Below, piece after piece: positions 19,993 through 34,726 of a stretch of 64,000 bases of DNA. The notes below the pieces were generated by a model. That model was not told the origin of the DNA. It saw nothing but the letters and a program-made list of their open reading frames with translations, and ran no database searches. This stretch comes from Billgrantia sulfidoxydans. GTDB lineage: Bacteria; Pseudomonadota; Gammaproteobacteria; Pseudomonadales; Halomonadaceae. The DNA is taken from contig NZ_CP053381.1 of NCBI RefSeq assembly GCF_017868775.1, positions 3,286,001 to 3,350,000 of the forward strand, given 5' to 3'. The position numbers were made by a program, and so were the translations under genes. Numbering within the stretch: the first letter of the stretch is position 1; every line of letters begins with the position of its first letter.

Positions 19993-20130
19993 GAGTACAT
20001 TGGCGCGGCTTCGGGCGCCAGTAGCGAGTACATTGGCGCGGCTTCGGGCGCCAGTAGCGAGTACATTGGCGCGGCTTCGGGCGCCAGTAGCGAGTACATT
20101 GGCGCGGCTTCGGGCGCCAGTAGCGAGTAC
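19993..20130. repeat. 33-bp tandem repeat, 4.2 copies
   Basis: Four identical 33-bp units start at 19993, 20026, 20059 and 20092, followed by six more bases of a fifth. Each unit contains an inverted repeat TGGCGC/GCGCCA around an 8-base centre with TTCG, so the RNA of either strand can fold into one small hairpin per unit. The block starts 7 bp after the ribD stop and ends about 92 bp before the ribBA start, so it lies inside the expected rib transcript. Because the unit is 11 codons long it stays open in several frames. Confidence 0.95.
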
Positions 20131-20137
20131 CCTCCCC

Positions 20138-21274
20138 TCAGTCCTGCCGGTGCTCCGGTCGCGCCGTGATCCGCCAGTCGCGTCCCACGGCGCGGATGTC
20201 GAGGATCTCCAGCGGCCGCTGCTGGGCCATGCGTGTCAGGCCCGGCAGGGCGAACAGCGGCCGCGCCTCGCCGCCGAGCAGCGTCGGTGCCACGAACAGC
20301 TGCATCTCGTCGACCAGGCCGGCATCGAGCATCGCCCCGGCCAGCGTGGCGCCGGTCTCCAGCAGCAGCTCATTGACCAGCTCCTGTTCGGCCAGGTAGT
20401 GCATCAGCACGGCGAGGTCGACGCGGCCATCCTTGCCGGCGCGCAACACCACCACCTCAGCGCCGGCCGCCTCCAGACGGGCGCGGCGCTGCGGCTCGTG
20501 CCCGGGCACGGTCGCCACCAGCGTGCGCCCCGGCTCGCGCAGGCAGGCCGCCGCCTGCGGCAGGCGCAGTTGCGTATCGACCACCACCCGCAGCGGCTGG
20601 CGTGCGGCGATGGCATCGGCGTCGTCGAGGCCCAGCTGCGAAGCCCGTACCGTCAGGCGAGAGTTGTCGAAGATGATCGAATCGACGCCGGTCATGATCG
20701 CACTGGCGGCGACTCTCAACCGCTGTACCTCGCCCCGTGCCTGGGGGCCGGTGATCCACTGCGATTCACCCGACTGCATGGCGGTGCGGCCGTCCAGGCT
20801 CATGGCCATCTTCAAGCGCACGAACGGTCGCCGGCGAGTCATGCGCGAGACGAAGCCGACGTTCAGCTTGCGCGCCTCCTCCTCGAGGAGCCCCACCTCG
20901 ACTTCGATCCCTGCCTCACGCAGCATGGCGATACCGCGCCCGGCCACTTCGGGGTTGGGGTCCTGCATGGCGACGACGACCCGTTCGACGCCGGCCTCGA
21001 TCAGCGCCACCGCGCAGGGTCCGGTACGCCCATGGTGCGAACAGGGTTCCAGCGTGACGTAGGCGGTGGCACGGTGGGCCGCCTCACCGGCCATGCGCAG
21101 CGCATGGACTTCGGCATGTGGCTCGCCGGCGCGCAGGTGCCAGCCCTCGCCGACCAGGCGCCGGTGACTGACCAGCACGCAGCCGACGCGCGGGTTGGGG
21201 TGCGTGGTATAGAGGCCGCGGCGGGCGAGCTGAAGCGCACGTGCCATCCAGGCGGCATCGGTCGGCTTGGCCAT
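20138..21274 (-). CDS. ribD: Bifunctional pyrimidine deaminase/reductase RibD
   Basis: This 378-residue enzyme carries out the second and third steps of riboflavin synthesis. The N-terminal deaminase domain has the zinc site HAEVHAL and PCSHHGRTGPC; the C-terminal reductase domain (from about residue 150) has RPFVRLKMAMSLDGRTA and GGEARPLF. It follows nrdR by 14 bp, the usual nrdR-ribD order. Downstream lies the 33-bp repeat array and then ribBA. Confidence 0.96.
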   Translation of the reverse strand: MAKPTDAAWMARALQLARRGLYTTHPNPRVGCVLVSHRRLVGEGWHLRAGEPHAEVHALRMAGEAAHRATAYVTLEPCSHHGRTGPCAVALIEAGVERVVVAMQDPNPEVAGRGIAMLREAGIEVEVGLLEEEARKLNVGFVSRMTRRRPFVRLKMAMSLDGRTAMQSGESQWITGPQARGEVQRLRVAASAIMTGVDSIIFDNSRLTVRASQLGLDDADAIAARQPLRVVVDTQLRLPQAAACLREPGRTLVATVPGHEPQRRARLEAAGAEVVVLRAGKDGRVDLAVLMHYLAEQELVNELLLETGATLAGAMLDAGLVDEMQLFVAPTLLGGEARPLFALPGLTRMAQQRPLEILDIRAVGRDWRITARPEHRQD

Positions 21275-21288
21275 CTCTCTCCTCGGCG

Positions 21289-21771
21289 TTAGTCGTCGGC
21301 GGTGCCGGGCGGAAAGCCGGGTTCCTGGGCGAGACGGTCGATCTCGGCGCGGAATTCATCGATGTCCTGAAAACGCCGGTAGACCGAGGCGAAGCGAATG
21401 TAGGCCACCTGGTCCAGGCGCTTGAGAGCCTGCATGACGACATCGCCGATGTCGCGCGCCTGGATCTCGCGCTCGCCGCTGGCCCGCAGGCGGTGGCGAA
21501 TCTGCTCGACGGCGGCCTCGATGGCCTCGGCGCTGACCGGACGCTTCTCCAGCGCACGCAGCATGCCGGCGCGCAGCTTGTGTTCGTCGAAGGTTTCCCG
21601 GGAACCGTCGGATTTCACTACCCTGGGCATCACCAGCTCGGCGGTCTCGTAGGTGGTGAAACGCTCGCCGCAATCGGTGCATTGGCGACGACGGCGCACC
21701 TGATCGCCCTCGGCCACCAGGCGGGAGTCGGTCACACGGGTGTCATGGGCGCCACAGAAGGGGCAATGCAT
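21289..21771 (-). CDS. nrdR: Transcriptional repressor NrdR
   Basis: This 160-residue ATP/dATP-sensing repressor of ribonucleotide reductase genes has a zinc ribbon ([15 protein letters not shown] and later [12 protein letters not shown]) followed by an ATP-cone domain beginning near [13 protein letters not shown]. The ATG at 21771, giving MHCPFCG, is the standard family start; an ATG 51 bp upstream would add 17 non-family residues. It is the first gene of the nrdR-ribD-ribBA-ribH-nusB-thiL-pgpA series. Confidence 0.97.
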
Positions 21772-21906
21772 GGTATCGGTCCGAACGTGGAGCGGGGCGA
21801 CCGCGAGGCCGCGCAGGGTCACAAGGGTGAACTCGTTGGGCGATAGTGTACCCGTTCACCCGCTGGCCGCCCAGCATCGCCGGCCCCGGACCTCGACGGG
21901 GCAGCC

Positions 21907-22380
21907 TCAGTGCGCATGCCCCTGCGTGTGGCCGGCCTGCGCGGCGTCCGCGACGATACGTCGGACCGGGGCCTCGATCCGCTGGGTTTCGCCCGTCTCG
22001 AAGCGGAGCTCGATCTCGACGGGCTCGCCCTCCGCCAGCGGCGCGACCAGTCCGATCAACATCATGTGCAGCCCGCCAGGCGCCAGCTCCGTACTGCCAC
22101 CGGCCGGCACCACGATCTGCGGCACCCGACGCATCTGCATCACCCCGTCCACGTCCCGATGGTCGTGCAGCTCCGCCGCCTCCGCCACCGGCGTTTCCGC
22201 GGCTACCAGCACCACGTCATGCTGCCCCGGGTTGCGCAGCGTCATGAAGGCGGCGGAGGTCTGCGAGCCGGGCGGCACGGCGCGTACCTGCGCATCCTCC
22301 ACCACCAGCGGGTCGGCCAGCGCCGTCAGCGATACCAGCGACAGACCGGCGGCGACCAGCAGAGCACGAGGCAGCATCAT
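21907..22380 (-). CDS. Periplasmic copper chaperone, PCu(A)C family
   Basis: This 157-residue protein has a signal peptide (about 22 residues ending LTALA) and the PCu(A)C fold with the copper-binding H(M)X10MX21HXM pattern: HDHRDVDGVMQMRRV and later GGLHMML. Such proteins hand Cu(I) to the CuA centre of cytochrome oxidase. The tail GHTQGHAH adds extra histidines. The ATG at 22380 has AGGAG upstream; a second ATG follows directly. It is divergent from the DsbG-like gene; the shared periplasmic thiol/copper theme suggests a role in cuproprotein assembly, which is inference. Confidence 0.85.
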   Translation of the reverse strand: MMLPRALLVAAGLSLVSLTALADPLVVEDAQVRAVPPGSQTSAAFMTLRNPGQHDVVLVAAETPVAEAAELHDHRDVDGVMQMRRVPQIVVPAGGSTELAPGGLHMMLIGLVAPLAEGEPVEIELRFETGETQRIEAPVRRIVADAAQAGHTQGHAH

Positions 22381-22551
22381 AACGGGACTCCTTTGTTGTA
22401 TCGTTGGCATGCGCCAGGAAAATGCAGCGCACAGCATACTATGACGCCCACGGTCAGTGCCCGGATGCGTCAACCCGACACGCCAGGCGGTCTCGCTGCG
22501 CGGTGAACGGTCCCTGCTCCGCCGACAGGAGCTTCTTTCAAGGAAATCGAC

Positions 22552-23307
22552 ATGGTGTTTCGCTTCACACTGCTTACGACGGCCCTCGCCACCCTTGCCG
22601 CCGCCCCCGATAGCAGGGCCGACGACTGGCCGCCTCCCGTTCGCGCGCTGATTGCCGAGGGCCTCGAGATCCATGGCGATTTCCCCGCTCCCGGTGGCCT
22701 GACGGGCTATGCCGCCAGCCACCAAGGCCGCGAGATGACCGTGTTCGTGACCGCCGATGGCGAACACGCCATCGTCGGAACCCTGGTCGATGCCGAAGGC
22801 AACGACCTCTCCGAGGCGCCGCTGGACGAACTGGTGCGCGCTCCCCAGGAGAACGAACTCTGGCGCCGGCTCGAAGAGAGCCACTGGATCGCCGACGGCA
22901 GCGTAGACGCCCCACGCACCCTCTATACCTTTACCGACCCGAACTGCCCTTACTGTCATCGTTTCTGGGAAGCTGCGCGGCCCTGGGTGGAGGCCGGCGA
23001 GGTGCAGCTGCGCCATATCATGGTGGGCATATTGGAACCCGACAGCCCGGCGAAAGCGGCTGCCCTGCTGGGTGCCGACGAGCCGTCAGCGGCGCTGCAC
23101 CGCCACAGCAGCGGAAACGACGTGGCGCCGTCGGCCCAGCCCCGAAACATCGAGGACCAGGTCTACCGCAACAATCAGCTGTTCGAGGAACTAGGTTTCT
23201 ACGCTACGCCGAGCACTCTTTTCCTGCTCGATGGACGTCTGGAGCGGGTGGATGGCATGCCCGACGAGGCGCGCCTGGTGGAGATGATGGGCGGCGAAGC
23301 ACCTTGA
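22552..23307 (+). CDS. dsbG: Thiol:disulfide interchange protein DsbG-like
   Basis: This 251-residue periplasmic protein has a signal peptide (about the first 23 residues), an N-terminal dimerisation region and a thioredoxin-fold domain with the active site CPYC (Cys132, Cys135) in FTDPNCPYCHRFW. The cis-proline loop ATPSTLFL is present. DsbG/DsbC proteins isomerise disulfides or rescue sulfenylated cysteines and are kept reduced by DsbD. The ATG has AAGGAAA upstream. It is divergent from the copper chaperone gene and ends at a hairpin shared with the opposing tsdA-like gene. Confidence 0.87.
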   Translation: MVFRFTLLTTALATLAAAPDSRADDWPPPVRALIAEGLEIHGDFPAPGGLTGYAASHQGREMTVFVTADGEHAIVGTLVDAEGNDLSEAPLDELVRAPQENELWRRLEESHWIADGSVDAPRTLYTFTDPNCPYCHRFWEAARPWVEAGEVQLRHIMVGILEPDSPAKAAALLGADEPSAALHRHSSGNDVAPSAQPRNIEDQVYRNNQLFEELGFYATPSTLFLLDGRLERVDGMPDEARLVEMMGGEAP

Positions 23308-23320
23308 ATCGTCCCTTAGG

Positions 23321-23356
23321 GGATTGCCCGCCGGCTAGAGCCGGGCGGGGCAATCC
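23321..23356. terminator. Shared hairpin between dsbG and the sulfur operon
   Basis: A long GC-rich imperfect stem (23321-23335 with 23340-23356, two bulged bases) lies between two converging genes, 13 bp after the dsbG stop and 11 bp before the tsdA stop. It can serve both strands; U-runs are poor. Confidence 0.6.
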
Positions 23357-23367
23357 TCTTGCCGTCA

Positions 23368-24384
23368 TCAATCCTTGAGGTTCTCGAAGCGCGGCATCCC
23401 GACATTCCAGGGTCTAACCTCTCCTTTCTCTCCCGTGTTGGAGTGATCTCCCAGCAACACCCCGTCGTGTTCACGCTCGGTTCCATAAAGCGTGTTCTTG
23501 TGGAATGTGGCTTCGAAGCGCTCACGAGTTTCCCGGACGTCGCCGGTATAGCGTGGGTCCTGTGGCCGCTCCTGGCTGGTGAGGTAAAGGGCGACATCCC
23601 AGGCTTCTTGATCGGTCAGGCTCATAGGCTGGCCGAGCGGCATGTTGTGCTTGACGAATCCGGCCATGGTGAAGGTCCGCGCAATGCCCGCCCCCCAATT
23701 ATTGGAGCCGTCACCCCACGGAGCCGGAAAGACATACTCGCCATTCTCGTAGAGACCGGAGCCGTCCTCGCTGTGGCAGATCGCACACTGCTCCTGGTAA
23801 ATCTGCTCGCCGCGCGCATAGTCAGGGGCCTGTTCAGGCTCGTCGAGACGCGGGAAACCCCTCCCATATATCGGCTGCTGCGGATACATGGGCACGCCAG
23901 TAGCCAGCCACTGGTGGTAGGCTGAAAGCGCCACCATGTCATCGCTGCCATAAATGGGTGGAGAACCGTTCATTGAATAGGCGAAGCAGCCGGCGATGCG
24001 CTCCTCCAGGTTGTTGACGTGCTGGTTCTTGCCGCGGAAATCGGGCAGCGTGACGGCAGCCGGCCATACCGGCCCGCTAAATGGCTGGCGCCCCTCGCCC
24101 AAGTGGCAGCTCGAGCAGTTCATGTCATTGAAAACGTTCACGCCGCGCAATTGCTGGGTATTGGTGAACAGGTCATGCCCGCGCCGAATCACTTTCTTCA
24201 GCTCGGGATGCAGGTCTGCCTCCTCGAGGTCCTCCATGGTCGGTGGTACGTGCACCAGCTCGCCCTCCTTGGGAGCGGGATAACCCATTTCAACGAGGGT
24301 TTCGTATTCCGCCCAGACACCGGCGTTCACGCCCCCCGCCAGAACCACGCCGGTCAGAGCCAGGCCAATCGATCTTCTGTTCAT
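23368..24384 (-). CDS. tsdA: Dihaem thiosulfate dehydrogenase, TsdA-like
   Basis: This 338-residue exported dihaem cytochrome c has two haem-binding motifs, CSSCH (Cys90, Cys93, His94) and CAICH (Cys200, Cys203, His204). The segment GCFAYSMNG (Cys133) matches the place of the axial cysteine of TsdA haem 1, the signature separating TsdA from ordinary cytochromes. TsdA oxidises two thiosulfates to tetrathionate, or the reverse. The N-terminus has a signal-like hydrophobic stretch. The ATG at 24384 has GAGGGGG upstream; an ATG 15 bp further up is possible. It follows the c4-type cytochrome gene by 11 bp, as in tsdBA pairs. Confidence 0.85.
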   Translation of the reverse strand: MNRRSIGLALTGVVLAGGVNAGVWAEYETLVEMGYPAPKEGELVHVPPTMEDLEEADLHPELKKVIRRGHDLFTNTQQLRGVNVFNDMNCSSCHLGEGRQPFSGPVWPAAVTLPDFRGKNQHVNNLEERIAGCFAYSMNGSPPIYGSDDMVALSAYHQWLATGVPMYPQQPIYGRGFPRLDEPEQAPDYARGEQIYQEQCAICHSEDGSGLYENGEYVFPAPWGDGSNNWGAGIARTFTMAGFVKHNMPLGQPMSLTDQEAWDVALYLTSQERPQDPRYTGDVRETRERFEATFHKNTLYGTEREHDGVLLGDHSNTGEKGEVRPWNVGMPRFENLKD

Positions 24385-24395
24385 GCTCTGCCCCC

Positions 24396-25043
24396 TCATT
24401 TTGTTGCCAAGTGCTGACGCGAGAGCCATGCCGCCACGGCTCGGATATCTGCATCGCTCATTCGCTTGGCGATGGAGCCCATCAGGTTCTGCGGATCGTT
24501 GTCACGTTCACCGGTTTGCCAGGTGCGTAGCTGAGTCTCGATGTAGCCGGCGTGCTGGCTGGCAATTCCAGGAAACGTGCTTCCTGCCCCCTGATTACCA
24601 GGACCGTGGCAGCTCTTGCACGACACGATATAAGCATTCCAATCGCCCCGCTGCGCCAGTTGCTCACCTCGCGCGAGCAGCGCCTCGTCGGCGTCTCCAC
24701 CTCCCCCTGCCTCGGTGACGGGCAATTGGCTGTAATAGGCAGCCACATCAGCGACCTGCTGGTCGTCGAGCATGTTGGCGAAGGGTTGCATGGTGGCATT
24801 CTGCCGTCGGCCCGCCTTGAAATCCTGCAGCTGTTTGGCGATGTAAGCGGCATCTAGCCCCGCCAGGCGCGGCCAGGACTCTCCCCCGTCCATATGCTTT
24901 CCGCTGCCATCCGCCTGATGGCAGGCCACGCAAGCGGCGGCGGCAGTTTCACCGCGTTGCGGATTTCCCTCTTGGGCCAGGGCCGGCCCGGCCATCAGGC
25001 CAAGCATCAGGCCGAGGCTGACTACGCTATTCACGATCGTCAT
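24396..25043 (-). CDS. tsdB: Dihaem c4-type cytochrome, TsdB-like electron acceptor
   Basis: This 215-residue periplasmic protein has a signal peptide (cleavage after ALA at residue 23) and two similar halves, each with one haem site: CVACH (Cys38-His42) and CKSCH (Cys142-His146). The double-domain architecture is that of cytochrome c4. Directly upstream of a TsdA-like gene it most likely takes electrons from thiosulfate oxidation and passes them to the terminal oxidases. A stand-alone cytochrome c4 is the alternative reading. Confidence 0.8.
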   Translation of the reverse strand: MTIVNSVVSLGLMLGLMAGPALAQEGNPQRGETAAAACVACHQADGSGKHMDGGESWPRLAGLDAAYIAKQLQDFKAGRRQNATMQPFANMLDDQQVADVAAYYSQLPVTEAGGGGDADEALLARGEQLAQRGDWNAYIVSCKSCHGPGNQGAGSTFPGIASQHAGYIETQLRTWQTGERDNDPQNLMGSIAKRMSDADIRAVAAWLSRQHLATK

Positions 25044-25082
25044 CTCGCATTACTCTCGTCGTTGTTATGGATCCCTTGTGGG

Positions 25083-25358
25083 TCATTGGTCCGGGGTTAC
25101 CGAACCCCCCTGGTGCCGCACGAATGGCGGCGTCAATCGAGCTTCGAAACTACCCTCAGTGAGGCAACGGAAGCTCACGCTGCCACCAAAGCGCGCTGCG
25201 ACGGCCGCCACGATAGACAAGCCAAGGCCACTGCCCTGTTGCATACCGTTTCGCCAGAAGCGATGCGTGACCTGCGTCAGTAACCCGGAATCGACGTCTG
25301 ACACCTGATTACTTACTCGGAACAACAGGTCGTCATTCTCGACGAGCAACACATGCAT
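25083..25358 (-). pseudogene. C-terminal remnant of a sensor histidine kinase
   Basis: The 91-residue frame from the ATG at 25358 ends with an ATPase G-box region: RFWRNGMQQGSGLGLSIV followed by ARFGGSV and FEARL, as in the last third of QseC-type sensor kinases. The dimerisation/phosphoacceptor domain, N-box and membrane region are missing; the open frame continues upstream to about 25451 without them. It lies between the YeeE/YedE genes and tsdB, on the same strand. Most likely it is the relic of a two-component regulator gene lost by deletion. A small functional ATPase-domain protein is possible but unlikely. Confidence 0.65.
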
Positions 25359-25481
25359 AATGAAACCCAAGCGTTGTGCGAAATCCCGCCGCGCAAGAAT
25401 TAACGCTGCGTTAAGCGACGGGAACGCTTGGCCAAGGGTGAGCGTCCTCACTCAGGCAAAAAGGGCAGCATCAACCAGTCC

Positions 25482-25895
25482 TCAGCCACGAGCGGGAAAC
25501 GCGCGTGCCAGGAACCAGCCCGCCACCATCGCCACCAGCATGGCGAACAGCGGGGCGGTAAGCCCGGCGATGGAAGCAATGGCCGGCCCGGGGCAGTAGC
25601 CGGAGAGCCCCCAACCGATGCCAAACAGGGCGGCACCGCCGATCAGCCGGCCATCCAGATCCTGACGGGTCGGCAGTTGGAAGGTCTCGCCCAGCATTGG
25701 CCGCTCACGACGGAATACGACACGGTAGCCAATGAAGGTCGTCACCACGGCGCCGCCGAGGACGAACATCAAGGTCGGGTCCCAGGCGCCGAAAAGGTCG
25801 AGAAAGCCCAGCACGCGCGCGGGGTCGGTCATGCCGGCAAGTGCCAGACCTAGGCCGAACAGCAGCCCAGCGATGTAACCCATGACCGTCTTCAT
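25482..25895 (-). CDS. YeeE/YedE family sulfur transporter, half-size subunit 2
   Basis: This 137-residue membrane protein has about four hydrophobic segments and the motif GLSGYCPGPAI, with the conserved cysteine of YeeE/YedE (Sulf_transp) proteins. Full-length YeeE imports thiosulfate; half-size pairs such as this are commonly found beside persulfide dioxygenase genes (Blh/BigR-type clusters). The ATG at 25895 has GGAGGT upstream and overlaps the stop of the partner gene by 4 bp, so both are made together. Confidence 0.85.
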   Translation of the reverse strand: MKTVMGYIAGLLFGLGLALAGMTDPARVLGFLDLFGAWDPTLMFVLGGAVVTTFIGYRVVFRRERPMLGETFQLPTRQDLDGRLIGGAALFGIGWGLSGYCPGPAIASIAGLTAPLFAMLVAMVAGWFLARAFPARG

Positions 25896-26353
25896 GCCCC
25901 ACCTCCAATGACGTGCCGCACCACATAGACAGTCACGATGGCGCATGCCAGGAAGGTCGCAGTGGCCACCATCGAGCGGGGCGACAGCCGCGCCAAGCCA
26001 CAGACACCGTGGCCGCTAGTGCAGCCGCTACCCAGGCCGGTGCCGACTCCAACCAGAAGGCCGGCCACGAGCATGAGCCCCACGCCACCAGCCGGCTGTC
26101 CAACTACCTCACCGGGTTCTCCGGCCACGTTACCCAGCCCCCCTCCTGTCAGCATGAGCAATAAAGGACCGCTGATCAGGCCCAGCACGAAGGCCACTCG
26201 CCAGGCGCTGTCTCCCTTGGGCAAGGTGGTCACCAGGCTACCGACGATGCCGCTGATACCGGCAATGCGTCCCAACGTGGCCATCAACCAGACAGCTGAC
26301 AGCCCAATGAGTACGCCACCGACCAGTCCTTGCAAACTTGCGCTCCAATCCAC
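25892..26353 (-). CDS. YeeE/YedE family sulfur transporter, half-size subunit 1
   Basis: This 153-residue membrane protein has about four transmembrane stretches and the family motif GSGCTSGHGVCG, whose cysteines are thought to relay thiosulfate or a sulfane-sulfur group across the membrane. It is followed by the second half-size subunit with a 4-bp overlap and preceded by the SulP gene with a 25-bp gap. Together the two halves resemble one YeeE molecule. Confidence 0.87.
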   Translation of the reverse strand: MDWSASLQGLVGGVLIGLSAVWLMATLGRIAGISGIVGSLVTTLPKGDSAWRVAFVLGLISGPLLLMLTGGGLGNVAGEPGEVVGQPAGGVGLMLVAGLLVGVGTGLGSGCTSGHGVCGLARLSPRSMVATATFLACAIVTVYVVRHVIGGGA

Positions 26354-26378
26354 GTCACTCCTCCCGTTTCTTTCAGAT

Positions 26379-28151
26379 TCATTCCGTCCCCATTGTCAGC
26401 GGTGCGGACTCCACTCCACCGCATGACGTTCCAGGGGATTGTGTTTCGCCGCGTAGGTAACGCCAGGCATCGAAGGTGCTGAGAAACACCAGGCCCGTCA
26501 TGTCATGGCAGAAGTCAGTGTGCTTGAGCCGATCCATCACCGGCCCCTTGACCTCCGCCAGGTGCAGCTTGACCCCAGCATCCCGCAAGCGGGTATTGAT
26601 CGCCTCCAGACTCTCCAATGCCGAGGCATCGATCCGGTTGACTGCCTGACAAGCCAGCACGATGTGTTCCAGCCCAGGCTCACGCGCCGCCAACGACATC
26701 ACTAAGTCCTCCAGGTAGCGTGAGTTGGCGAAGTAGAGGCTCTCGTCGACTCGCAATATGGCCAGGCGCGGATCTGTCTCGACTCGATGTCGCTTGACGT
26801 TGCGAAAGTGTTCGGTACCCGGCACCCGGCCCACCACCGCGCTATGGGGACGGCTGGTGTTGTAGAGATGCAGCGCCAGTGACAGCCCCACCCCCGCGAG
26901 GATGCCGCTCTCCACCCCATGACCGAGCGTCACACCAACGGTGGCGAACATGGCCAGGGCATCGGAGCGTGAGTAGTTCCAGGTGTGCCGCATGGCCTTG
27001 ATGTCCACTAGGGAGAGCACGGCCACGATAATGGTCGCCGCCAGCGTGGCGATCGGCAGGTAGGCAATCAGCGGGGTCAACAGCAGCGCGGCGACGGCGA
27101 TGCCTACGGCGGTGAATGCACCGGCGGCTGGCGTCTCGGCGCCCGCGTCGAAATTGACCACCGAGCGGGCGAAGCCACCGGTCACCGGCATGCCGCCGGT
27201 CAGCGACGCGGCAATGTTCGAGGTGCCCAGGCCCACCAGCTCCTGGTCCGGGTCGATGCGCTGGCGCCGCTTCGCGGCGAGGGTCTGCCCCACCGAGACC
27301 GACTCCACGAAGCCGATCACACTGATCAGCAATGCTGACACGAACAGCTGGCCCCACAGCTCCCCATCGAATCCGGGAAGGGTCAGTGGCGGCAGGCCTG
27401 CCGGCACCGTACCTACCACGGCCACGCCCTGCGCATCCAGACCCAGCGACCAAGTCGCCAGGGCGGTGACGGCGACGGCCAGTATCGGCGCCGCCTTGGT
27501 CAGCATGTCCGCGGGACGTGCGGGTATGCCCAGCTTCCCAAGGCCGTGCTTGAGCCAACGGCGGGCAACATGGAGGAACGCCAAAACGGCGAAGCCGATG
27601 ACAAGGGTAGGCCCGTTTACCCCCTCCAGACTGCCACCCAGGCTGACCAATAGCTCCAGCAGGTTATGACCGCTGGCCTCCACACCCAGCACATGCTTTA
27701 ACTGGCTAGCGGCAATGATCAGCCCCGAGGCGGTAATGAACCCCGAGATGACCGGATGACTGAGAAAGTTGGCCAGGAAGCCCAACCGGGCAATTCCCAT
27801 CAGGGTTAGAATCAGCCCCGACATCAGCGCCAGCACCAGCGCCGCCCCGAGGTATTCCGGTGAGCCCTGGGGGGCGATCTGTCCCACTGCTGCCGCTGTC
27901 ATCAGCGAGACCACCGCCACTGGTCCCACCGCCAGGGTCCGACTGGTGCCGAACACGGCATAGACCGCCAATGGTGCGATGCTGGCGTAGAGCCCCACTT
28001 CGGGTGGCAGGCCGGCCAGCATGGCATAGGCCAGCGACTGAGGAATCAGCATGATGGTCACGATGACTGCTGCCAGCAGGTCGCTTGCCAGGGTTGCACG
28101 CCCGTAGCCTGGCAGCCACTGCAGTATCGGCAGATAGCGCTTGGGACTCAT
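26379..28151 (-). CDS. SulP family anion permease with STAS domain
   Basis: This 590-residue protein has the SulP core (PILQWLPGY start, LAYAMLAGLPPEVGLYAS motif, many transmembrane helices up to about residue 430) and a C-terminal cytoplasmic STAS domain (from about residue 455, RVDESLYFANSRYLEDLV). SulP proteins carry sulfate, bicarbonate or dicarboxylates. Its position 11 bp after the persulfide dioxygenase-like gene and before the YeeE/YedE pair makes sulfate or sulfite movement the most likely job, for example removal of the oxidation product. Substrate is inferred from context only. Confidence 0.88.
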   Translation of the reverse strand: MSPKRYLPILQWLPGYGRATLASDLLAAVIVTIMLIPQSLAYAMLAGLPPEVGLYASIAPLAVYAVFGTSRTLAVGPVAVVSLMTAAAVGQIAPQGSPEYLGAALVLALMSGLILTLMGIARLGFLANFLSHPVISGFITASGLIIAASQLKHVLGVEASGHNLLELLVSLGGSLEGVNGPTLVIGFAVLAFLHVARRWLKHGLGKLGIPARPADMLTKAAPILAVAVTALATWSLGLDAQGVAVVGTVPAGLPPLTLPGFDGELWGQLFVSALLISVIGFVESVSVGQTLAAKRRQRIDPDQELVGLGTSNIAASLTGGMPVTGGFARSVVNFDAGAETPAAGAFTAVGIAVAALLLTPLIAYLPIATLAATIIVAVLSLVDIKAMRHTWNYSRSDALAMFATVGVTLGHGVESGILAGVGLSLALHLYNTSRPHSAVVGRVPGTEHFRNVKRHRVETDPRLAILRVDESLYFANSRYLEDLVMSLAAREPGLEHIVLACQAVNRIDASALESLEAINTRLRDAGVKLHLAEVKGPVMDRLKHTDFCHDMTGLVFLSTFDAWRYLRGETQSPGTSCGGVESAPLTMGTE

Positions 28152-28162
28152 CGCGATGGCTC

Positions 28163-29029
28163 TCAGAACTTGTTGATCGGCACCTTGAGGTAGACTTGGC
28201 CGTTGTCCTCGGGCGGCGGCATATGGCCGGCGCGCATGTTGACCTGCACCGACGGCAGGATCAGCCGCGGCATGTCGAGGGTGGCGTCGCGCTCGGTGCG
28301 CATCCTGACGAACTCCTCCTCGCTGATGCCCTCATGAACGTGCACGTTGTGGGCACGCTGCTCGGCGACGGTGGTCTCGTGCTGGTACGCCTCGCGCTCC
28401 GGTGCCCTGTAGTCGTGACACAGGAAGAGCCGGGTTTCGCCCGGCAGCGCCAGCACCTTCTGGATGGATTGATAAAGGGTGCGGGCATCGCCACCAGGGA
28501 AGTCGCAGCGCGCCGTACCGTAGTCGGGCATGAACAGGGTGTCGCCTACGAAGGCCGCATCACCGATCACATAGGTCAGGCAGGCCGGTGTATGCCCCGG
28601 CGTATGCAGCACTCGTCCTTCCAGGTTACCGATGGCGAAGGTATCGCCTTCCTCGAACAGGCGATCGAACTGGCTGCCGTCGCGGGCGAACTCGGTGCCC
28701 GCATTGAAGGCCTTGCCGAAGACCTCCTGGACCACGGTGATCCTGGCACCGATACCGGTCTTGCCGCCGAGCTTCCCATGGAGATAGGGAGCAGCTGAGA
28801 GATGATCTGCGTGAACGTGGGTCTCGAGGATCCACTCGACTTTCAACCCCTCGCGCTGGATGAAGGCGACGATCGCCTCCGCCGAACGCGTATCGGTACG
28901 CCCTGCGGCGTAGTCGAAGTCGAGCACTGAATCGAGGATCGCACAGGCTCGACTGTCGGGATCCCGGACCACGTAGCTGAAGGTGTTGGTGGGCTCGTCG
29001 AAGAAGTGGGTCACGATGGGTTGGGACAT
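28163..29029 (-). CDS. MBL-fold persulfide dioxygenase-like protein (Blh type)
   Basis: This 288-residue metallo-beta-lactamase-fold protein has THVHADHLSA, TPGHTPACL, FVGDTLFMPDYGTARCDFPGG and CHDY, the iron-binding pattern of ETHE1/Blh persulfide dioxygenases, which oxidise glutathione persulfide to sulfite and glutathione. The C-terminus PEDNGQVYLKVPINKF is typical of the Blh subgroup. The ATG at 29029 is chosen (GGAGG upstream); an earlier ATG adds 16 residues. It is the first gene of the sulfur operon and is preceded by an AT-rich promoter zone. No BigR-type repressor or rhodanese domain is present here. Confidence 0.88.
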   Translation of the reverse strand: MSQPIVTHFFDEPTNTFSYVVRDPDSRACAILDSVLDFDYAAGRTDTRSAEAIVAFIQREGLKVEWILETHVHADHLSAAPYLHGKLGGKTGIGARITVVQEVFGKAFNAGTEFARDGSQFDRLFEEGDTFAIGNLEGRVLHTPGHTPACLTYVIGDAAFVGDTLFMPDYGTARCDFPGGDARTLYQSIQKVLALPGETRLFLCHDYRAPEREAYQHETTVAEQRAHNVHVHEGISEEEFVRMRTERDATLDMPRLILPSVQVNMRAGHMPPPEDNGQVYLKVPINKF

Positions 29030-29072
29030 GGGCCATGACCTCCGTTGGGTGTCGCTGCATGTCAGATGAGGC

Positions 29073-29121
29073 AGCATACCTTATCTAAAGTTCTAACGAT
29101 ATATCATTTTTGAATATAAAG
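29073..29121 (-). promoter_or_regulatory. AT-rich promoter zone of the sulfur operon
   Basis: About 50 bases upstream of the dioxygenase-like gene are sharply AT-rich within GC-rich surroundings and include TATAT (29100-29104 region) facing ATATA across a 9-base spacer, a plausible operator for an ArsR/BigR-type or other dimeric regulator. I could not place a convincing -35/-10 pair. Confidence 0.35.
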
Positions 29122-29161
29122 CGACCACCTTGAAGCCAACGGCGATAGCACCGCAAGCGGG

Positions 29162-29191
29162 GCGAGGCGCGAGCCGAGCCTGGCGCCTCGC
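29162..29191 (-). terminator. Hairpin downstream of the beta-CASP hydrolase gene
   Basis: A 9-bp stem (29162-29170 with 29183-29191) with a 12-nt loop lies 23 bp after the stop codon of the minus-strand hydrolase. No U-run follows. Confidence 0.4.
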
Positions 29192-29213
29192 GTCAGCGCA
29201 GCAGGCGTAAATG

Positions 29214-30623
29214 CTAGAGTTCAATACGCTCGCCGTAGGCGGGAATGAAGGCTTCGATGCCGCTCTCGGCCAGAGCCGATTTCAACGCCTGCTGGGTTTG
29301 CGGTTCGCCGTGCACCAGGTAGAGGCGAGGGCGCTCCCGGAAGGCGCCGGCCCAGCCGATCAGCTGGCTCTGTCCGGCATGGGCGGAGAAACCGCCGATC
29401 GTGTGCACCTTTGCCCTCACCTCCAGTTCCTGCCCCAGCACACGCACACGTTCGGCGCCGTCGACGAGTTGACGCCCCAGGGTGCCGGCGGCCTGGAAAC
29501 CGACGATCACGAGCCGGGTGTTGGCCTTTTCGAGGTTGTAGCGAAAATGGTGAACGATGCGTCCACCGGTACACATGCCGGCACCGGCGATGATGATCGC
29601 CCCGCCATGGATGCGATTGATCGCCATCGACTCCTCCACCGTGCGGGTCATGCGCAGGATCGGCAGGTACTGACTGGTATCGCCACTGGCGGCGATATTG
29701 AGCACCTTGAGGTCCTCGGCATCCAGGCTTTTGCGTGCGCGGTGGTAGAGCTCGGTGACCTTGATCGCCATGGGGCTGTCGAGAAACACCATCTGCTGGC
29801 GCAGCCGCCCCTCGTGGTAGAGCACGCTCAGGTGATAGAGGATCTCCTGGGTACGGCCCACGGCAAAGGCGGGAATCAGCACGTTGCCGCCGCTGGCATG
29901 GGCTTCCTCCAATACCTGAGCGAACTCTTCGAGCGTCTCTTCGAGAGGCCGATGGTCGCGGTCGCCGTAGGTACTCTCCATCAGGACCACATCGGCGTCA
30001 TACAGCCTGGCGGGATCCTTCATCAGCACCGAGCTGGGGTTGCCCAGGTCTCCCGAGAAGACGAGGCGCTTCGTCAGCCCGGCGGAGGGCACGGCCAGCT
30101 CGACGATCCCCGAGCCCAGGATATGACCGGCATCATGAAAGACCAGGGACACGCCACCGGGTAGCTCGATGGGCTGACCGTAGCCGTGGGACTTGCACAA
30201 TGCCAGCGTGCGCTCCACGTCCTCCAGCGCATAGAGCGGCTCGGCCAGCGGCCTGCCGCTGCGTTGGCGCCTCTTGTTCTCCCATTCGACGTCCTTGGCC
30301 ATGATGAAGGCGGCATCCTCGAGCATGATGTCGAGCAGGTCGCGCGTGCCACGGGTGCAGTGGATCGGGCCGTCGTACCCCTCGCGCACCAGCTTGGGCA
30401 ACAGCCCGGCATGGTCCAGGTGCCCGTGCGAGAGCACCACCGCATCGAGCTGCTTCGCCAAGGCGCCGAACGGCACGGCGTTGGCGGCGTCCGCCTGCCT
30501 GCCGCCCTGGTGCAGTCCGCACTCCAGAAGCAGACGGTAGGTGCGATCGCCACCCTCCACTTCGATCAGATAACGTGAGCCGGTGACTTCCCCCACCGCC
30601 CCCAGGAACGTCAATGTCGACAT
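29214..30623 (-). CDS. MBL-fold/beta-CASP exonuclease-like RNA-processing hydrolase
   Basis: This 469-residue protein opens MSTLTFLGAVGEVTGSRYLI and has the zinc motif SHGHLDHAG, then ESTYGDRDH, and the beta-CASP insert and C-terminal motifs (GAGMCTGGRIVHH, HTIGGFSAHAGQ, LVHGE). This is the architecture of CPSF-73/TTHA0252-type ribonucleases. Cytoplasmic, with RNA maturation or decay as probable role. The ATG at 30623 is preferred because the protein start matches the family; an upstream ATG adds 50 unrelated residues. It is divergent from the large secreted protein gene, with 251 bp between. Confidence 0.88.
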   Translation of the reverse strand: MSTLTFLGAVGEVTGSRYLIEVEGGDRTYRLLLECGLHQGGRQADAANAVPFGALAKQLDAVVLSHGHLDHAGLLPKLVREGYDGPIHCTRGTRDLLDIMLEDAAFIMAKDVEWENKRRQRSGRPLAEPLYALEDVERTLALCKSHGYGQPIELPGGVSLVFHDAGHILGSGIVELAVPSAGLTKRLVFSGDLGNPSSVLMKDPARLYDADVVLMESTYGDRDHRPLEETLEEFAQVLEEAHASGGNVLIPAFAVGRTQEILYHLSVLYHEGRLRQQMVFLDSPMAIKVTELYHRARKSLDAEDLKVLNIAASGDTSQYLPILRMTRTVEESMAINRIHGGAIIIAGAGMCTGGRIVHHFRYNLEKANTRLVIVGFQAAGTLGRQLVDGAERVRVLGQELEVRAKVHTIGGFSAHAGQSQLIGWAGAFRERPRLYLVHGEPQTQQALKSALAESGIEAFIPAYGERIEL

Positions 30624-30798
30624 CTGCCCATGCCCCTTCGCTGTGGCCGTTACATTTTCAGCATACTCGAAGGTGGGGCCGAGGATGCAGGCAAAACCTA
30701 GACCTGGGTCAGGTTTGGCTGCAGTCCGTACGGCGCAGCACAGACCGAAAAACGTCAGACCACGACATGGCATTCCTGCGGTGCACGGGGTTGCGTCT

Positions 30799-30827
30799 TT
30801 GAGGTGGAGGCGTATCGACGATACTAC
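30799..30827 (+). promoter_or_regulatory. Sigma-70-like promoter candidate for the large repeat protein
   Basis: TTGAGG (30799-30804) and TACTAC (30822-30827) are spaced 17 bp, about 48 bp before the start codon of the large repeat-protein gene. Four of six bases fit in each hexamer. The call is by eye. Confidence 0.4.
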
Positions 30828-30874
30828 TTAACATACAGAAACAAACGCCCACGTGATCCTTGGGAGGATTGGCC

Positions 30875-33800
30875 ATGAGCTCAACGGTTCAACCGGAAGA
30901 GCAGGAGCAGGACGGCCTGGTCACGCTCGACAACGTGGAGGAGGCAGAGTCAGCCTCCACCACCGTCCAGTTCCAGCAGGGCCTCGACGGTTATGCCGGG
31001 TCCGTCGATACCTACCTGCACGGCGGTTCCAAGGCCACCAGCCGGGCCGGCGCCGCCACGCTCAACGTCGACAGCGACGACAAGGGCAACGAGGTGCAGA
31101 CACTGCTGCGCTTCGAGCAGATCTTCGGCAGCGGCGCCGGGCAGATCCCGCAGGGCGCCACCATTCTCTCCGCCACCCTGGAGCTTCATACCACCAGCAA
31201 GGGCGATGGCGCCCGACTGCACCGCATGCTGATACCGTGGAACGACACCGATACCTGGAACAGCTTCAGCGACGGGCTCCAGGCCGACGGCGTCGAGGCC
31301 CGCGCCAGCGCCGACCTCACCACCGGCTTCGTGCCCACCGGCACCACCCGGCTCGACGTCAGCGCCAGCCTGCAGGCCTGGGCCGACGGTGCGCCCAACC
31401 ACGGCTGGGCGTTCCTGTCGACGGGTCCCGACGGCTGGGACTTCCACTCGGCGGAGGGCAGCACGCCGCCACGGCTGGTCGTCGAGTACACCACCGACGG
31501 CAGCGAACCCGACAACCGCCCGCCGGTGGCCAACGACGACAGCGCCACGACAACGGAGGGGGAGGCGGTCGAGATCGCCGTGCTGGCCAACGACAGCGAC
31601 CCCGACGGGGATCCGCTGACGGTCGACAGCTTCACCCAGCCGGCCAACGGCAGCGTCACCCTCACCGATGACGACATGCTCGCCTACACCCCCGATGACG
31701 GTTTCACCGGCGAGGATAGCCTCACCTATCGCGCCTCGGATGGCGAGCTGGCCAGCGATTCCGCCACCCTGAGCGTCACGGTCGAGGAGAACGAACCACC
31801 GCCCGCGTCCGCCACGCTGCAGTTCCAGCAAGGCGTCGATGGCTATGCGGGGGTCGTCGACACCTATCTCCACGGCGGCTCCAAGGCCACCAGCCGGGCC
31901 GGCGCCACCCTCCTCAACGTCGACAGCGACGACAAGGGCAATCCGGTGCAGACGCTGCTGCGCTTCGAGCAGATCTTCGGCAGCGGCGCCGGGCAGATCC
32001 CGCTCGGTGCCACCATCGTTTCCGCCACCCTGGAGCTCAACACCAGCGGCAAGGGCGACGGCGCCCGGCTGCACCGCATGCTGGTGCCGTGGAACGACAC
32101 CGATACCTGGAACAGCTTCAGCGACGGTCTCCAGGCCGACGGTGTCGAGGCCCATGCCAACGCCGACCTCACCACCGGCTTCGTGCCCACCGGCACCACC
32201 CGGCTCGATGTCACTGCCAGCCTGCAGGCCTGGGCCGACGGCGCGCCCAACCACGGCTGGGCGTTCCTGCCGACGGGCCCCGACGGCTGGGACTTCCACT
32301 CGGCGGAGGGTAGCACGCCGCCGCGGCTGGTCGTCGAGTACACCACCGACGGCAGCGAACCCGACAACCACCCGCCGGTGGCCTACGACGACAGCGCCAC
32401 GACCAGCGAAGATGCCGCGGTCGAGATCGCCGTGCTGGCCAACGACAGCGACCCCAACGGGGATCCGTTGACGGTCGGCAGCTTCACCCAGCCGTCCAAC
32501 GGCAGCGTCACGCTGAATCCCGACGGCACCCTCCTCTATACACCCACGGCGGGCTTCGTCGGCGATGACGTCTTCACCTACCGTGCCTCGGATGGCGAGC
32601 TGGCCAGCGACCCCGCCACCGTGACCGTCACGGTCGAGCCGGCCGAACCACCTCCCGCTTCCGGCACGCTGCAGTTCCAGCAGGGCCTCGACGGCTATGC
32701 CGGTGTCGTCGACACCTACCTGCACGGGGGGTCCAAGGCCACCAGCCGGGCCGGGGTGACCACGCTCAACGTCGACAGCGAGGACAAGGGCAACGCGGTA
32801 CAGACGCTACTGCGCTTCGAGCAGATCTTCGGCAGCGGATCCGGGCAGATCCCGCTGGGCGCCACCATCGTCTCCGCCACCCTGGAGCTCAACACCACCG
32901 GCAAGGGTGACGGCGCCCGGCTGCACCGCATGCTGATGCCGTGGAACGATACCGATACCTGGAACACCTTCACCGATGGCCTCCAGGCCGACGGCGTGGA
33001 GGCCCATGCCAGCGCCGACCTGGTCACCGGCTATGTACCTGTCGGCACTACCCGGCTCGACGTCACCGCCAGCCTGCAGGCCTGGGCCGACGGCACGCCC
33101 AACTACGGCTGGGCCTTCCTCCCGGTGGGCCCCGACGGCTGGGACTTCCATTCGGCGGAGGGCAGCACGCCACCGCGACTGGTCGTCGAGTACACCACCG
33201 ACGGCAGCGAACCCGACAACCACCCGCCGGTGGCCAATGACGACAACGCCACGACCAGCGAGAACGCGGCGGTCGAGATCGCCGTGCTGGCCAACGACAG
33301 CGACCCCGACGGGGATCCGTTGACGGTCGGCAGCTTCACCCAGCCGACCCACGGTAGCGTCACGCTGAACCCCAGCGGCACCCTCACCTACTCGCCGAAC
33401 CAGGGTTTCATCGGCAGCGATAGCTTCACCTACCGCGCCTCGGACGGGAGCCTCCAGAGCGGTTCAGCCACGGTCATCGTCTCCGTCGAATCCGGCATGC
33501 CCCCGCCCATTCCGCTGGAAACCTCCTACATTGCGACCGAATTCGGCACAGACCACCGACGCAATTTCGAGCACACCAATGCCAACAAGAGTTTCTTTCA
33601 TGCCGGTACCTGGTGGGCCGTGTTGCCGGAGCAGAGCGGCTGGCACGTGTATCGCTTCGACGGCACCCTGCCCGAACCCGGCACGATGGGCGGGTGGTCG
33701 GTGGCGAGCCCGACCATGATGACCAGCGGCCGCCGAGCCGACATCGCCTGGCATGACGCGACCGATACGCTGTACGTGCTCAATTTCGGACCCACCGAAT

Positions 33801-34726
33801 CGACGCCGCACCTCTACGCCATGGCCTATGACGCCCAGGCCCAGTCGTTCGTCGTGTCGGCGGATATCAAGCTGGCCGGTTCGGGCGGCAAGCTGTCGGG
33901 AGTGGAATGGCAGCGCAACCCCGACATGGCATTGGGAATGGACCAGAACGGCAACCCGCTGGTGGCCATCATCGGCCCTTCCGAAGCGGGCGGCGAACAG
34001 GGCTTGAAGCTGGCCTACCCGACCTCGAGCGACCTCTCGGCCTGGAGCGTGGTCGATATCGATAACGGCCCCACCACCGTCTCGGCCAGCAACGGCGACA
34101 ACAAGGTCGACTTCGTGTCCTTCCAGTTGAACGGCATCGACCATGTCGGCCTCGTCTACGGCGACAGCACCGCCAACGCCTGGAAGTTCGCCTCCCAGCC
34201 AACCTCCGCGACGCCCAGTGACTACGCCGACGGCTGGACCATCGAGCAGATCACCGACCGCGTGGCCCTGGATGATCACCTTGCCGCGGTATGGACCGGC
34301 AGCGCCATCGTCATGACCATGAAAGACGACAGGGATGCGATCTGGCTGGTCAAGGGCCTGCCCGGCGCCTGGGAGGAGCCGGTACTGGTGCATGCCGCCT
34401 CCCACAAGGCCAGCCGGCCGACCCTGGCCTATGACGAAGACAACGACTTCATCTACGTCTTCTACCAGGAGAACGCCGTGAGCCCGTATGGTGACATTCA
34501 TTTCAAAGTTTCACAGGTCGCCGAGCTATCCTTCGACACCGCCGCTTCCGGCACGCGAATCCTGACCAGCGGCAGCAATGACGAGAACATGACCGACCCT
34601 CAGACCCCCGTGCACGCCGTCGGTGAAGCTACCGGCGACAAGTTCTTTCTGTTCGCCCGCAACGCCGAGGCCAAGGAGATCTGGTACAACGACTTCCAGC
34701 TTGACGACGACATCTTTCTCGCCTGA
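30875..34726 (+). CDS. Large modular extracellular protein (DNRLRE-like plus cadherin-like repeats), probable type I secretion substrate
   Basis: This 1283-residue acidic protein has no signal peptide. After about 31 residues it has three near-identical 284-residue modules (starting near residues 32, 316 and 600). Each module is a ~170-residue DNRLRE/CBM96-like domain (VDTYLHGGSKATSR, LLRFEQIFGSG) followed by a ~95-residue cadherin/VCBS-type domain (NRPPVANDDSAT, VLANDSDPDGDPLTV). Residues ~890-1283 form a different region with propeller-like repeats. The end DDDIFLA, acidic then hydrophobic, resembles type I secretion signals. The ATG at 30875 has GGGAGGA upstream. It converges with the HlyD/ABC exporter genes 12 bp away, supporting secretion by them. 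Function, perhaps adhesion or polysaccharide binding, is inference. Confidence 0.82.
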   Translation: MSSTVQPEEQEQDGLVTLDNVEEAESASTTVQFQQGLDGYAGSVDTYLHGGSKATSRAGAATLNVDSDDKGNEVQTLLRFEQIFGSGAGQIPQGATILSATLELHTTSKGDGARLHRMLIPWNDTDTWNSFSDGLQADGVEARASADLTTGFVPTGTTRLDVSASLQAWADGAPNHGWAFLSTGPDGWDFHSAEGSTPPRLVVEYTTDGSEPDNRPPVANDDSATTTEGEAVEIAVLANDSDPDGDPLTVDSFTQPANGSVTLTDDDMLAYTPDDGFTGEDSLTYRASDGELASDSATLSVTVEENEPPPASATLQFQQGVDGYAGVVDTYLHGGSKATSRAGATLLNVDSDDKGNPVQTLLRFEQIFGSGAGQIPLGATIVSATLELNTSGKGDGARLHRMLVPWNDTDTWNSFSDGLQADGVEAHANADLTTGFVPTGTTRLDVTASLQAWADGAPNHGWAFLPTGPDGWDFHSAEGSTPPRLVVEYTTDGSEPDNHPPVAYDDSATTSEDAAVEIAVLANDSDPNGDPLTVGSFTQPSNGSVTLNPDGTLLYTPTAGFVGDDVFTYRASDGELASDPATVTVTVEPAEPPPASGTLQFQQGLDGYAGVVDTYLHGGSKATSRAGVTTLNVDSEDKGNAVQTLLRFEQIFGSGSGQIPLGATIVSATLELNTTGKGDGARLHRMLMPWNDTDTWNTFTDGLQADGVEAHASADLVTGYVPVGTTRLDVTASLQAWADGTPNYGWAFLPVGPDGWDFHSAEGSTPPRLVVEYTTDGSEPDNHPPVANDDNATTSENAAVEIAVLANDSDPDGDPLTVGSFTQPTHGSVTLNPSGTLTYSPNQGFIGSDSFTYRASDGSLQSGSATVIVSVESGMPPPIPLETSYIATEFGTDHRRNFEHTNANKSFFHAGTWWAVLPEQSGWHVYRFDGTLPEPGTMGGWSVASPTMMTSGRRADIAWHDATDTLYVLNFGPTESTPHLYAMAYDAQAQSFVVSADIKLAGSGGKLSGVEWQRNPDMALGMDQNGNPLVAIIGPSEAGGEQGLKLAYPTSSDLSAWSVVDIDNGPTTVSASNGDNKVDFVSFQLNGIDHVGLVYGDSTANAWKFASQPTSATPSDYADGWTIEQITDRVALDDHLAAVWTGSAIVMTMKDDRDAIWLVKGLPGAWEEPVLVHAASHKASRPTLAYDEDNDFIYVFYQENAVSPYGDIHFKVSQVAELSFDTAASGTRILTSGSNDENMTDPQTPVHAVGEATGDKFFLFARNAEAKEIWYNDFQLDDDIFLA
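30968..33523 (+). repeat. Three 852-bp direct repeats within the large secreted protein gene
   Basis: The same codon block (QFQQG) starts at 30968, 31820 and 32672, exactly 852 bp (284 codons) apart each time; the third unit diverges near 33490-33523. Long stretches are identical between units, with differences mainly at single bases. The period is exact, with no net insertion or deletion between units. Confidence 0.95.

Follow-up and report, generated by a model that had tools for sequence, protein, structure and literature searches.

A probable two-unit sulfur gene island in Billgrantia sulfidoxydans that has apparently lost its regulator and kinase genes while keeping tsdBA and a candidate regulator site

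Results

Overview of the locus

The window analysed in this study is a stretch of 64,000 nucleotides from the single-contig genome (4.49 Mb) of Billgrantia sulfidoxydans. On its minus strand, from 29029 to 23368, it carries in succession the genes for a predicted persulfide dioxygenase (PDO), a permease of the SulP family, a pair of half-size YeeE/YedE proteins (YeeE1 and YeeE2), a relic of a two-component system, the cytochrome TsdB and the predicted thiosulfate dehydrogenase TsdA (Table 1). The explanation that we favour, and consider probable, is that this is a sulfur island of two units, in which the window lost a response regulator (RR) and a histidine kinase (HK) by a deletion of about 1.8 kb and retained both tsdBA and the site (P2) in front of the lost regulator. 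The gene content, its conservation, the deletion in this assembly and the pattern of the P2 box were directly observed.

An earlier note on this DNA had described six genes and a kinase relic running in one direction. The genes, their order and their strand were confirmed, whereas the range of gaps given there (11 to 86 bp) is inexact and the relic was found to hold the start of an RR as well. PDO and SulP are separated by 11 bp, SulP and YeeE1 by 25 bp, the relic and TsdB by 39 bp and TsdB and TsdA by 11 bp, while YeeE1 and YeeE2 overlap by 4 bp. The distance from YeeE2 is 123 bp to the RR-type start of the relic (25358) and 30 bp to the start of its longest open reading frame (25451).

Table 1. 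Features of the sulfur locus and its neighbour in the window
Feature	Coordinates	Strand	Basis
P1, AT-rich conserved element with a -10-like TATGCT, 5' of PDO	29073..29118	-	TA[TG]AA[CT]-N6-12-[CTG]TAN[GA][CA]T
PDO, ETHE1/Blh-type persulfide dioxygenase	28163..29029	-	PF00753; best PDB matches 9g8t, 4ysk, 4efz
SulP permease with STAS domain	26379..28151	-	PF00916, PF01740; TIGR00815 above cut-off
YeeE1, half-size YeeE/YedE protein 1	25892..26353	-	PF04143 (Sulf_transp) 23.3 bits, under cut-off 27
YeeE2, half-size YeeE/YedE protein 2, DUF6691	25482..25895	-	PF20398, 3.9e-43
P2 box, TTAACG-N5-TTAAT, where the lost RR presumably bound	25399..25414	-	56 bp before the RR-type start of the relic
Relic, RR start fused to HK end, 91 aa	25083..25358	-	Alignment to B. 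antri; HATPase_c profile positions 34-109 only
TsdB, dihaem c4 cytochrome	24396..25043	-	PDB 5lo9 residues 5-192, 3.1e-38; cytochromes c4 6q2u, 1etp
TsdA, thiosulfate dehydrogenase	23368..24384	-	PDB 5lo9 residues 244-513, 5.3e-66; 4wqc/4v2k
DsbG, convergent conserved neighbour	22552..23307	+	NF008657, 298 bits (cut-off 124)

The relic and the deletion

The relic consists of approximately 12 codons from the start of an RR joined to approximately 79 codons from the end of an HK. Its longest open reading frame extends from 25451 to 25083. From 25358 onward this frame reads MHVLLVENDDLL, a stretch alignable to the beginning of an OmpR-type response regulator, and the last 79 or so residues of the HK come immediately after it. 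Alignment with the corresponding locus of Billgrantia antri (L032, the same contig as L087) gave flanks of 405 and 421 columns with 81% and 83% identity, between which about 1778 bp are missing from the window, the junction being near 25320. Direct repeats at the ends of the deletion were not evident by eye in this alignment. B. antri is the nearest among the named loci returned, with a TsdA 93% identical to that of the window, although records very near the window genome may be left out of this set. Elsewhere in the window genome no ortholog was found of the RR (best match 50%) or of the HK (best reported match 35% among 11 scored of 33 candidates).

Conservation across relatives

A search of 151 genomes of the family, including that of the window, gave TsdA matches in 42 at a threshold of E 0.001, some of these being distant cytochromes. 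For all fifteen TsdA genes of at least 72% identity (window included), a YeeE2 gene on the same strand lies no more than 8 kb away, so that the gene order is beyond chance and the co-localisation proposed in the earlier note holds. An HK is also present in twelve of the fifteen, the others being the window, G145 and G039. The earlier note had suggested a search of Halomonadaceae genomes for the same order, and the order was indeed found, except that in most of those with close tsdBA genes an RR-HK pair stands where the relic lies, between yeeE2 and tsdB (12 of 14 relatives whose TsdA is at least 72% identical; 41 of 44 among named loci).

After filtering, 51 matches to the HK remained, all with E no higher than 2.3e-104, together with 40 to TsdA (14 fragments or weak cytochrome matches dropped) and 101 to YeeE2 (5 short or weak ones dropped). 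Thirty-three of the HK orthologs lie beside YeeE2, nineteen beside TsdA, fourteen beside both and thirteen beside neither. As 64 of the 101 YeeE2 matches adjoin neither HK nor TsdA, the upstream unit is common without the downstream one. An RR-HK-tsdBA set with no YeeE nearby was found in L052, L053, L054 and L056.

The named-genome set comprises 74 of 75 loci, a Planctomycete match (L161) being left out. An RR-HK pair precedes tsdBA in 41 of the 74, and all 41 have YeeE2 upstream. The Halomonadaceae loci without the regulator are L093, L094 and L118, the last of which is cut by a contig end. The 30 loci from outside the Halomonadaceae are 57-76% identical (Tepidiphilus, Alcaligenaceae, Marinobacter, Nitrincola, Marinospirillum and others), and no PDO, YeeE or orthologous regulator was found in their available sequence, which is short on the upstream side in several. 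L040, L093 and L033, the last being the genome of L094, lack the RR-HK pair but keep tsdBA, and neither L033 nor L040 has the box upstream of tsdB. Together with the same-genus loci L084-L086, which lack RR, HK and tsdBA, this pattern suggests that the module may have been lost more than once.

The P2 box

The P2 box of the window, TTAACGNNNNNTTAAT, is the sole exact match to this sequence in the 4.49-Mb genome. The box was first spotted in the window and in B. antri and was then counted in the remaining loci. In the first locus set, TTAA-N7-TTAA was found 55-59 bp 5' of the RR start in all eighteen loci with tsdBA directly after the pair and in none of the eighteen others. Among the named genomes it occurs in 40 of 41 tsdBA-linked loci, the exception being Billgrantia montanilacus (L088). 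The two sets share some genomes; after removal of duplicate RR proteins, fifty loci have both the box and tsdBA, seventeen have neither, one has tsdBA alone and none has the box alone, which corresponds to 50 of 51 tsdBA-linked distinct RR loci against 0 of 17 others. Only the N7 spacing occurs among those of 0-20 tried. The box is upstream of RR matches in 19 of 22 cases, where mononucleotide shuffles lead to an expectation of 0.04, and it was found upstream of PDO in 1 of 21 cases and upstream of tsdB in none of 35. Most telling is the comparison of L077 and L113, which sit together on a branch with good support: the member without tsdBA is also without the box.

TTAA-N7-TTAA is presumed to be the binding site of the regulator and is treated here as a candidate. 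It may resemble PmrA-type boxes; a literature search on the PmrA box with TTAA returned nothing. In L066, where tsdA is broken or split, both tsdB and the box are absent.

Terminators and the element before PDO

Of 47 distinct tsdBA-linked loci, 32 carry a stem-loop followed by a T-run after yeeE2, as against none of 11 others; the mean in shuffled sequences was 1.2 of 58. In the window, no terminator was predicted in the gap between yeeE2 and the relic. Positions 22300-29300 contain five terminator-like sites (4.2 in shuffles), two of them within the relic, and a sigma-70 consensus scan of the same region gave no promoter-like site.

Of the 51 distinct regions upstream of PDO, 42 contain the P1 pattern, which was picked after the alignment had been viewed; the mononucleotide-shuffle mean was 0.3. 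The nine regions in which it is absent include those of the close relatives L032 and L088. A literature search on the BigR operator and palindrome returned nothing that would name a regulator for P1.

Discussion

A model of two units

In the likely ancestor, P1 would have driven the genes that deal with persulfide, and P2 those for thiosulfate oxidation along with a sensor that regulates itself. The first unit (P1: pdo, often sulP, yeeE, yeeE) would take up and detoxify sulfane sulfur, with the persulfide handled in the cytoplasm. The second unit (P2: RR, HK, tsdB, tsdA) would sense a sulfur signal in the periplasm and switch on the conversion of thiosulfate into tetrathionate; TsdB would hand on the electrons, and the regulator would activate its own operon through TTAA-N7-TTAA. 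In the window genome, the deletion of about 1.8 kb would have taken the working RR and HK and left the P2 site, the start codon of the regulator and open tsdBA genes, which may now be driven by unactivated P2, by read-through from P1 or by another regulator. Binding to the box, the signal, the transport substrates and present expression are the parts of this explanation that we infer. The oxidation of periplasmic thiosulfate to tetrathionate by TsdBA, which the earlier note had also put forward, is the likely chemistry, and the YeeE proteins of the window may import thiosulfate.

Several observations weigh against this explanation. Expression and regulator binding at the window locus are predictions from sequence. 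The deletion was seen in one assembly, and pairwise dN/dS (the ratio of nonsynonymous to synonymous substitution rates) is unable to date it relative to selection on the branch of the window. The two terminator-like matches inside the relic, although weak, could block read-through. Along the RR tree there are four changes of the box and three of tsdBA, which leaves two to three independent pairs. With kinship taken into account, the association between them therefore cannot become significant, and kinship could yield much of it. The single exception, B. montanilacus, retains RR-HK-tsdBA yet is without the box. Moreover, among the fifty loci with the box, tsdA is broken or split in three (L062, L155 and L159) and tsdB is not open throughout in L042, and the box is therefore not perfectly matched to a working tsdBA. 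Either it outlives or is indifferent to damage of tsdBA in some genomes, or those assemblies contain errors.

Alternative explanations

The earlier note placed all genes under one promoter, such that a single transcript from P1 would couple thiosulfate import, persulfide oxidation and tetrathionate formation. We regard this as doubtful. The shared strand, the short gaps and the lack of a predicted terminator between yeeE2 and the relic agree with it, as do three distinct genomes (L033/L094 counted as one, L040 and L093) in which RR-HK is absent and tsdB follows soon after yeeE2. However, as a general design it does not suit most tsdBA-bearing relatives, because their own RR-HK pair, the conserved box and often (32 of 47) a terminator after yeeE2 separate the two units. 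The occurrence of RR-HK-tsdBA without a nearby YeeE, and of PDO-YeeE without tsdBA, also argues against it. In the window strain, which has lost the two-component genes and shows no predicted terminator between yeeE2 and the relic, read-through may occur; transcription from a single promoter may have become true there with the regulator gone.

It is rather unlikely that tsdBA and the relic are decaying remains and that tsdBA is silent in the window strain. The same-genus loci L084-L086, whose YeeE2 proteins are 93-96% identical to that of the window, contain PDO-SulP-YeeE-YeeE and lack RR, HK and tsdBA, and tsdA is broken or split in other genomes (L066, L062, L155 and L159). On the other hand, tsdA and tsdB of the window remain open reading frames with their haem motifs kept, and their pairwise dN/dS values against B. 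antri are low (0.066 and 0.132 respectively).

The neighbouring pair was suggested by Du et al. (2022, PMC9237845, as far as its available text goes) to be QseBC, which would place tsdBA under quorum control. This we consider improbable. One HK (L035) and one RR (L042) from relatives were scored against the NCBIfam equivalog models; QseC was the best kinase model and QseB tied with PmrA for the regulator, but the scores of all three are far under the curated cut-offs (QseC, 217 against 475 bits; QseB, 222 against 345; PmrA, 223 against 330), which makes the quorum-sensing reading weak. The positions of the HK orthologs, 33 of 51 beside YeeE2, 19 beside TsdA and 13 beside neither, also argue against it. 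The assignment of the pair to QseBC was rejected on these scores. Finally, a working small regulator made of an ATPase fragment is very improbable, as the in-frame fusion of 91 codons keeps a start codon and the GSGLGLSIV motif but matched the ATPase profile only in part and showed no receiver, DNA-binding or HisKA domain in a domain profile search, and its dN/dS, which is similar to that of the intact pair, covers only 62 codons and is uninformative.

The putative sensor pair and its significance

Of 68 distinct RR loci, 57 have a convergent DsbG gene no more than 7 kb from the start of the RR, and several of the remaining loci are cut by contig ends. RR-HK orthologs were found near convergent DsbG in L077 and L079-L083 even without YeeE and tsdBA nearby, and this adjacency suggests a thiol-redox role for the sensor. 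A more tentative possibility, to which we give clearly less weight than to the two-unit island with a deletion, is that RR-HK is an undescribed sulfur-sensing pair which was tied to DsbG before its link with tsdBA and later gained tsdBA together with a new autoregulatory TTAA-N7-TTAA site. The deletion in the window would then release tsdBA from its sensor and place it under the promoter for persulfide detoxification, a rewiring caught midway.

tsdBA is carried by many halophilic heterotrophs. What switches it on in them has so far been guessed at, the suggestion being quorum sensing (PMC9237845, available text). The locus offers a candidate regulator and a candidate binding site whose presence follows that of tsdBA, as well as naturally occurring strains that either have or lack the regulator and are suited to testing it. 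The window strain is a natural deletion of the sensor genes in a known kind of sulfur gene set in which the likely DNA site of the switch is kept.

Gene identities and neighbouring features

The family assignments of the earlier note were supported by profile and PDB matches, more weakly for the YeeE/YedE halves. PDO is a PDO-type metallo-beta-lactamase with a best PDB match of 1.5e-127, and the matches to 9g8t, 4ysk (a PDO) and 4efz are all at E 5.2e-117 or better. It scored just 78 bits with the glyoxalase II model GSH_gloB (cut-off 201) and lies nearer the PDO type. Assignment as the bifunctional sulfurtransferase/dioxygenase Blh was rejected, with 406 bits for NF040641 against a cut-off of 625, model positions 140-423 alone matching and no fused sulfur-transferase domain. 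A small separate gene of one cluster lies between PDO and SulP in L033, L038, L040 and L054, the L033 copy being a Blh-phosphatase-like TIGR01244 sulfur transferase; the 11-bp gap of the window has no such gene. SulP scored 459 bits with TIGR00815 (cut-off 380) and has the STAS domain.

The two putative YeeE/YedE (PmpAB-like) halves differ in that YeeE2 matches DUF6691 and YeeE1 stays below the threshold for PF04143. Their cysteines are conserved, C110 and C117 in YeeE1 and C101 in YeeE2 being invariant among 27 aligned sequences. A PDB sequence search with either half matched nothing meaningful, and a profile comparison between them showed no convincing likeness (probability 0.9%). The AlphaFold models of both were unusable, with a pLDDT (predicted local distance difference test) of 50-52.

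TsdB is a dihaem c4 cytochrome encoded immediately 5' of tsdA. In TsdA, C90-C93-H94, C133, C200-C203-H204 and N247-M248 are invariant in a four-sequence alignment, so that both CxxCH haem sites are kept, with a predicted Cys axial ligand of haem 1 and a Met near haem 2; the ligand roles follow the available text of PMC9237845. DsbG was assigned by the NF008657 cut-off.

Elsewhere in the genome there is a second PDO (57%) at G000:C1:1298928 and a flavocytochrome c sulfide dehydrogenase (FCSD) flavoprotein domain at 3498540. A genome search for SoxB gave no match, but no control genome passed the cut-off either and the search thus lacks a positive control. An Rfam scan of positions 20000-32000 gave no match. 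Positions 19993-20130 of the window, just past the end of the ribD reading frame, hold a 33-bp tandem repeat in 4.2 copies that are identical throughout (100%), and a reading frame of 1288 residues at 30860-34726 consists of near-identical repeated blocks and likely encodes a secreted repeat protein.

Comparison with known systems

The locus is partly anticipated in print, as induction of tsdBA, tetrathionate formation and a neighbouring 'QseBC' have already been published for Halomonas. In the available text of PMC9237845, thiosulfate raises tsdA 4.3-fold and tsdB 21.5-fold in H. titanicae SOB56 with formation of tetrathionate, and tsdBA is described with a regulator named QseB upstream and DsbG downstream. 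A kinase adjoins the regulator in five genomes there, and some tsdB genes have a soxH homologue nearby. The earlier note did not know this exact combination as a described operon. The YeeE unit does not appear in that account of tsdBA, and the literature found on the locus, as far as the available text and listings go and with PMC12423496 and PMC9774590 included, describes no box, terminator or fused relic. A literature search on Billgrantia with thiosulfate returned nothing. According to the available part of PMC8014003, 204 of 206 Halomonas genomes have pdo and 106 have tsdA.

Halomonas (Vreelandella) titanicae SOB56 and its relatives share with the window tsdB directly 5' of tsdA and the DsbG and rib genes downstream, and their cultures convert thiosulfate to tetrathionate; the regulator and kinase upstream are present in that group but deleted in the window (PMC9237845, available text). 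In Acinetobacter baumannii, PDO and YeeE/YedE likewise form one detoxification unit, the yeeE-yedE-pdo2 operon under BigR, as in Serratia; unlike the window, this operon is controlled by a persulfide-sensing repressor, and tsdBA is unmentioned in the available text (PMC7315123). The ttrRS-ttrBCA-tsdBA locus of Vibrio parahaemolyticus resembles our model in that a two-component system autoregulates and activates tsdBA, but the regulator is another one, its box is GTGG-N4-CCAC and tetrathionate reductase genes are included (PMC11293645, available text). The 5lo9 structure of Marichromatium purpuratum matches the window TsdB and TsdA with its two parts, which form one chain there and are encoded by two genes in the window.

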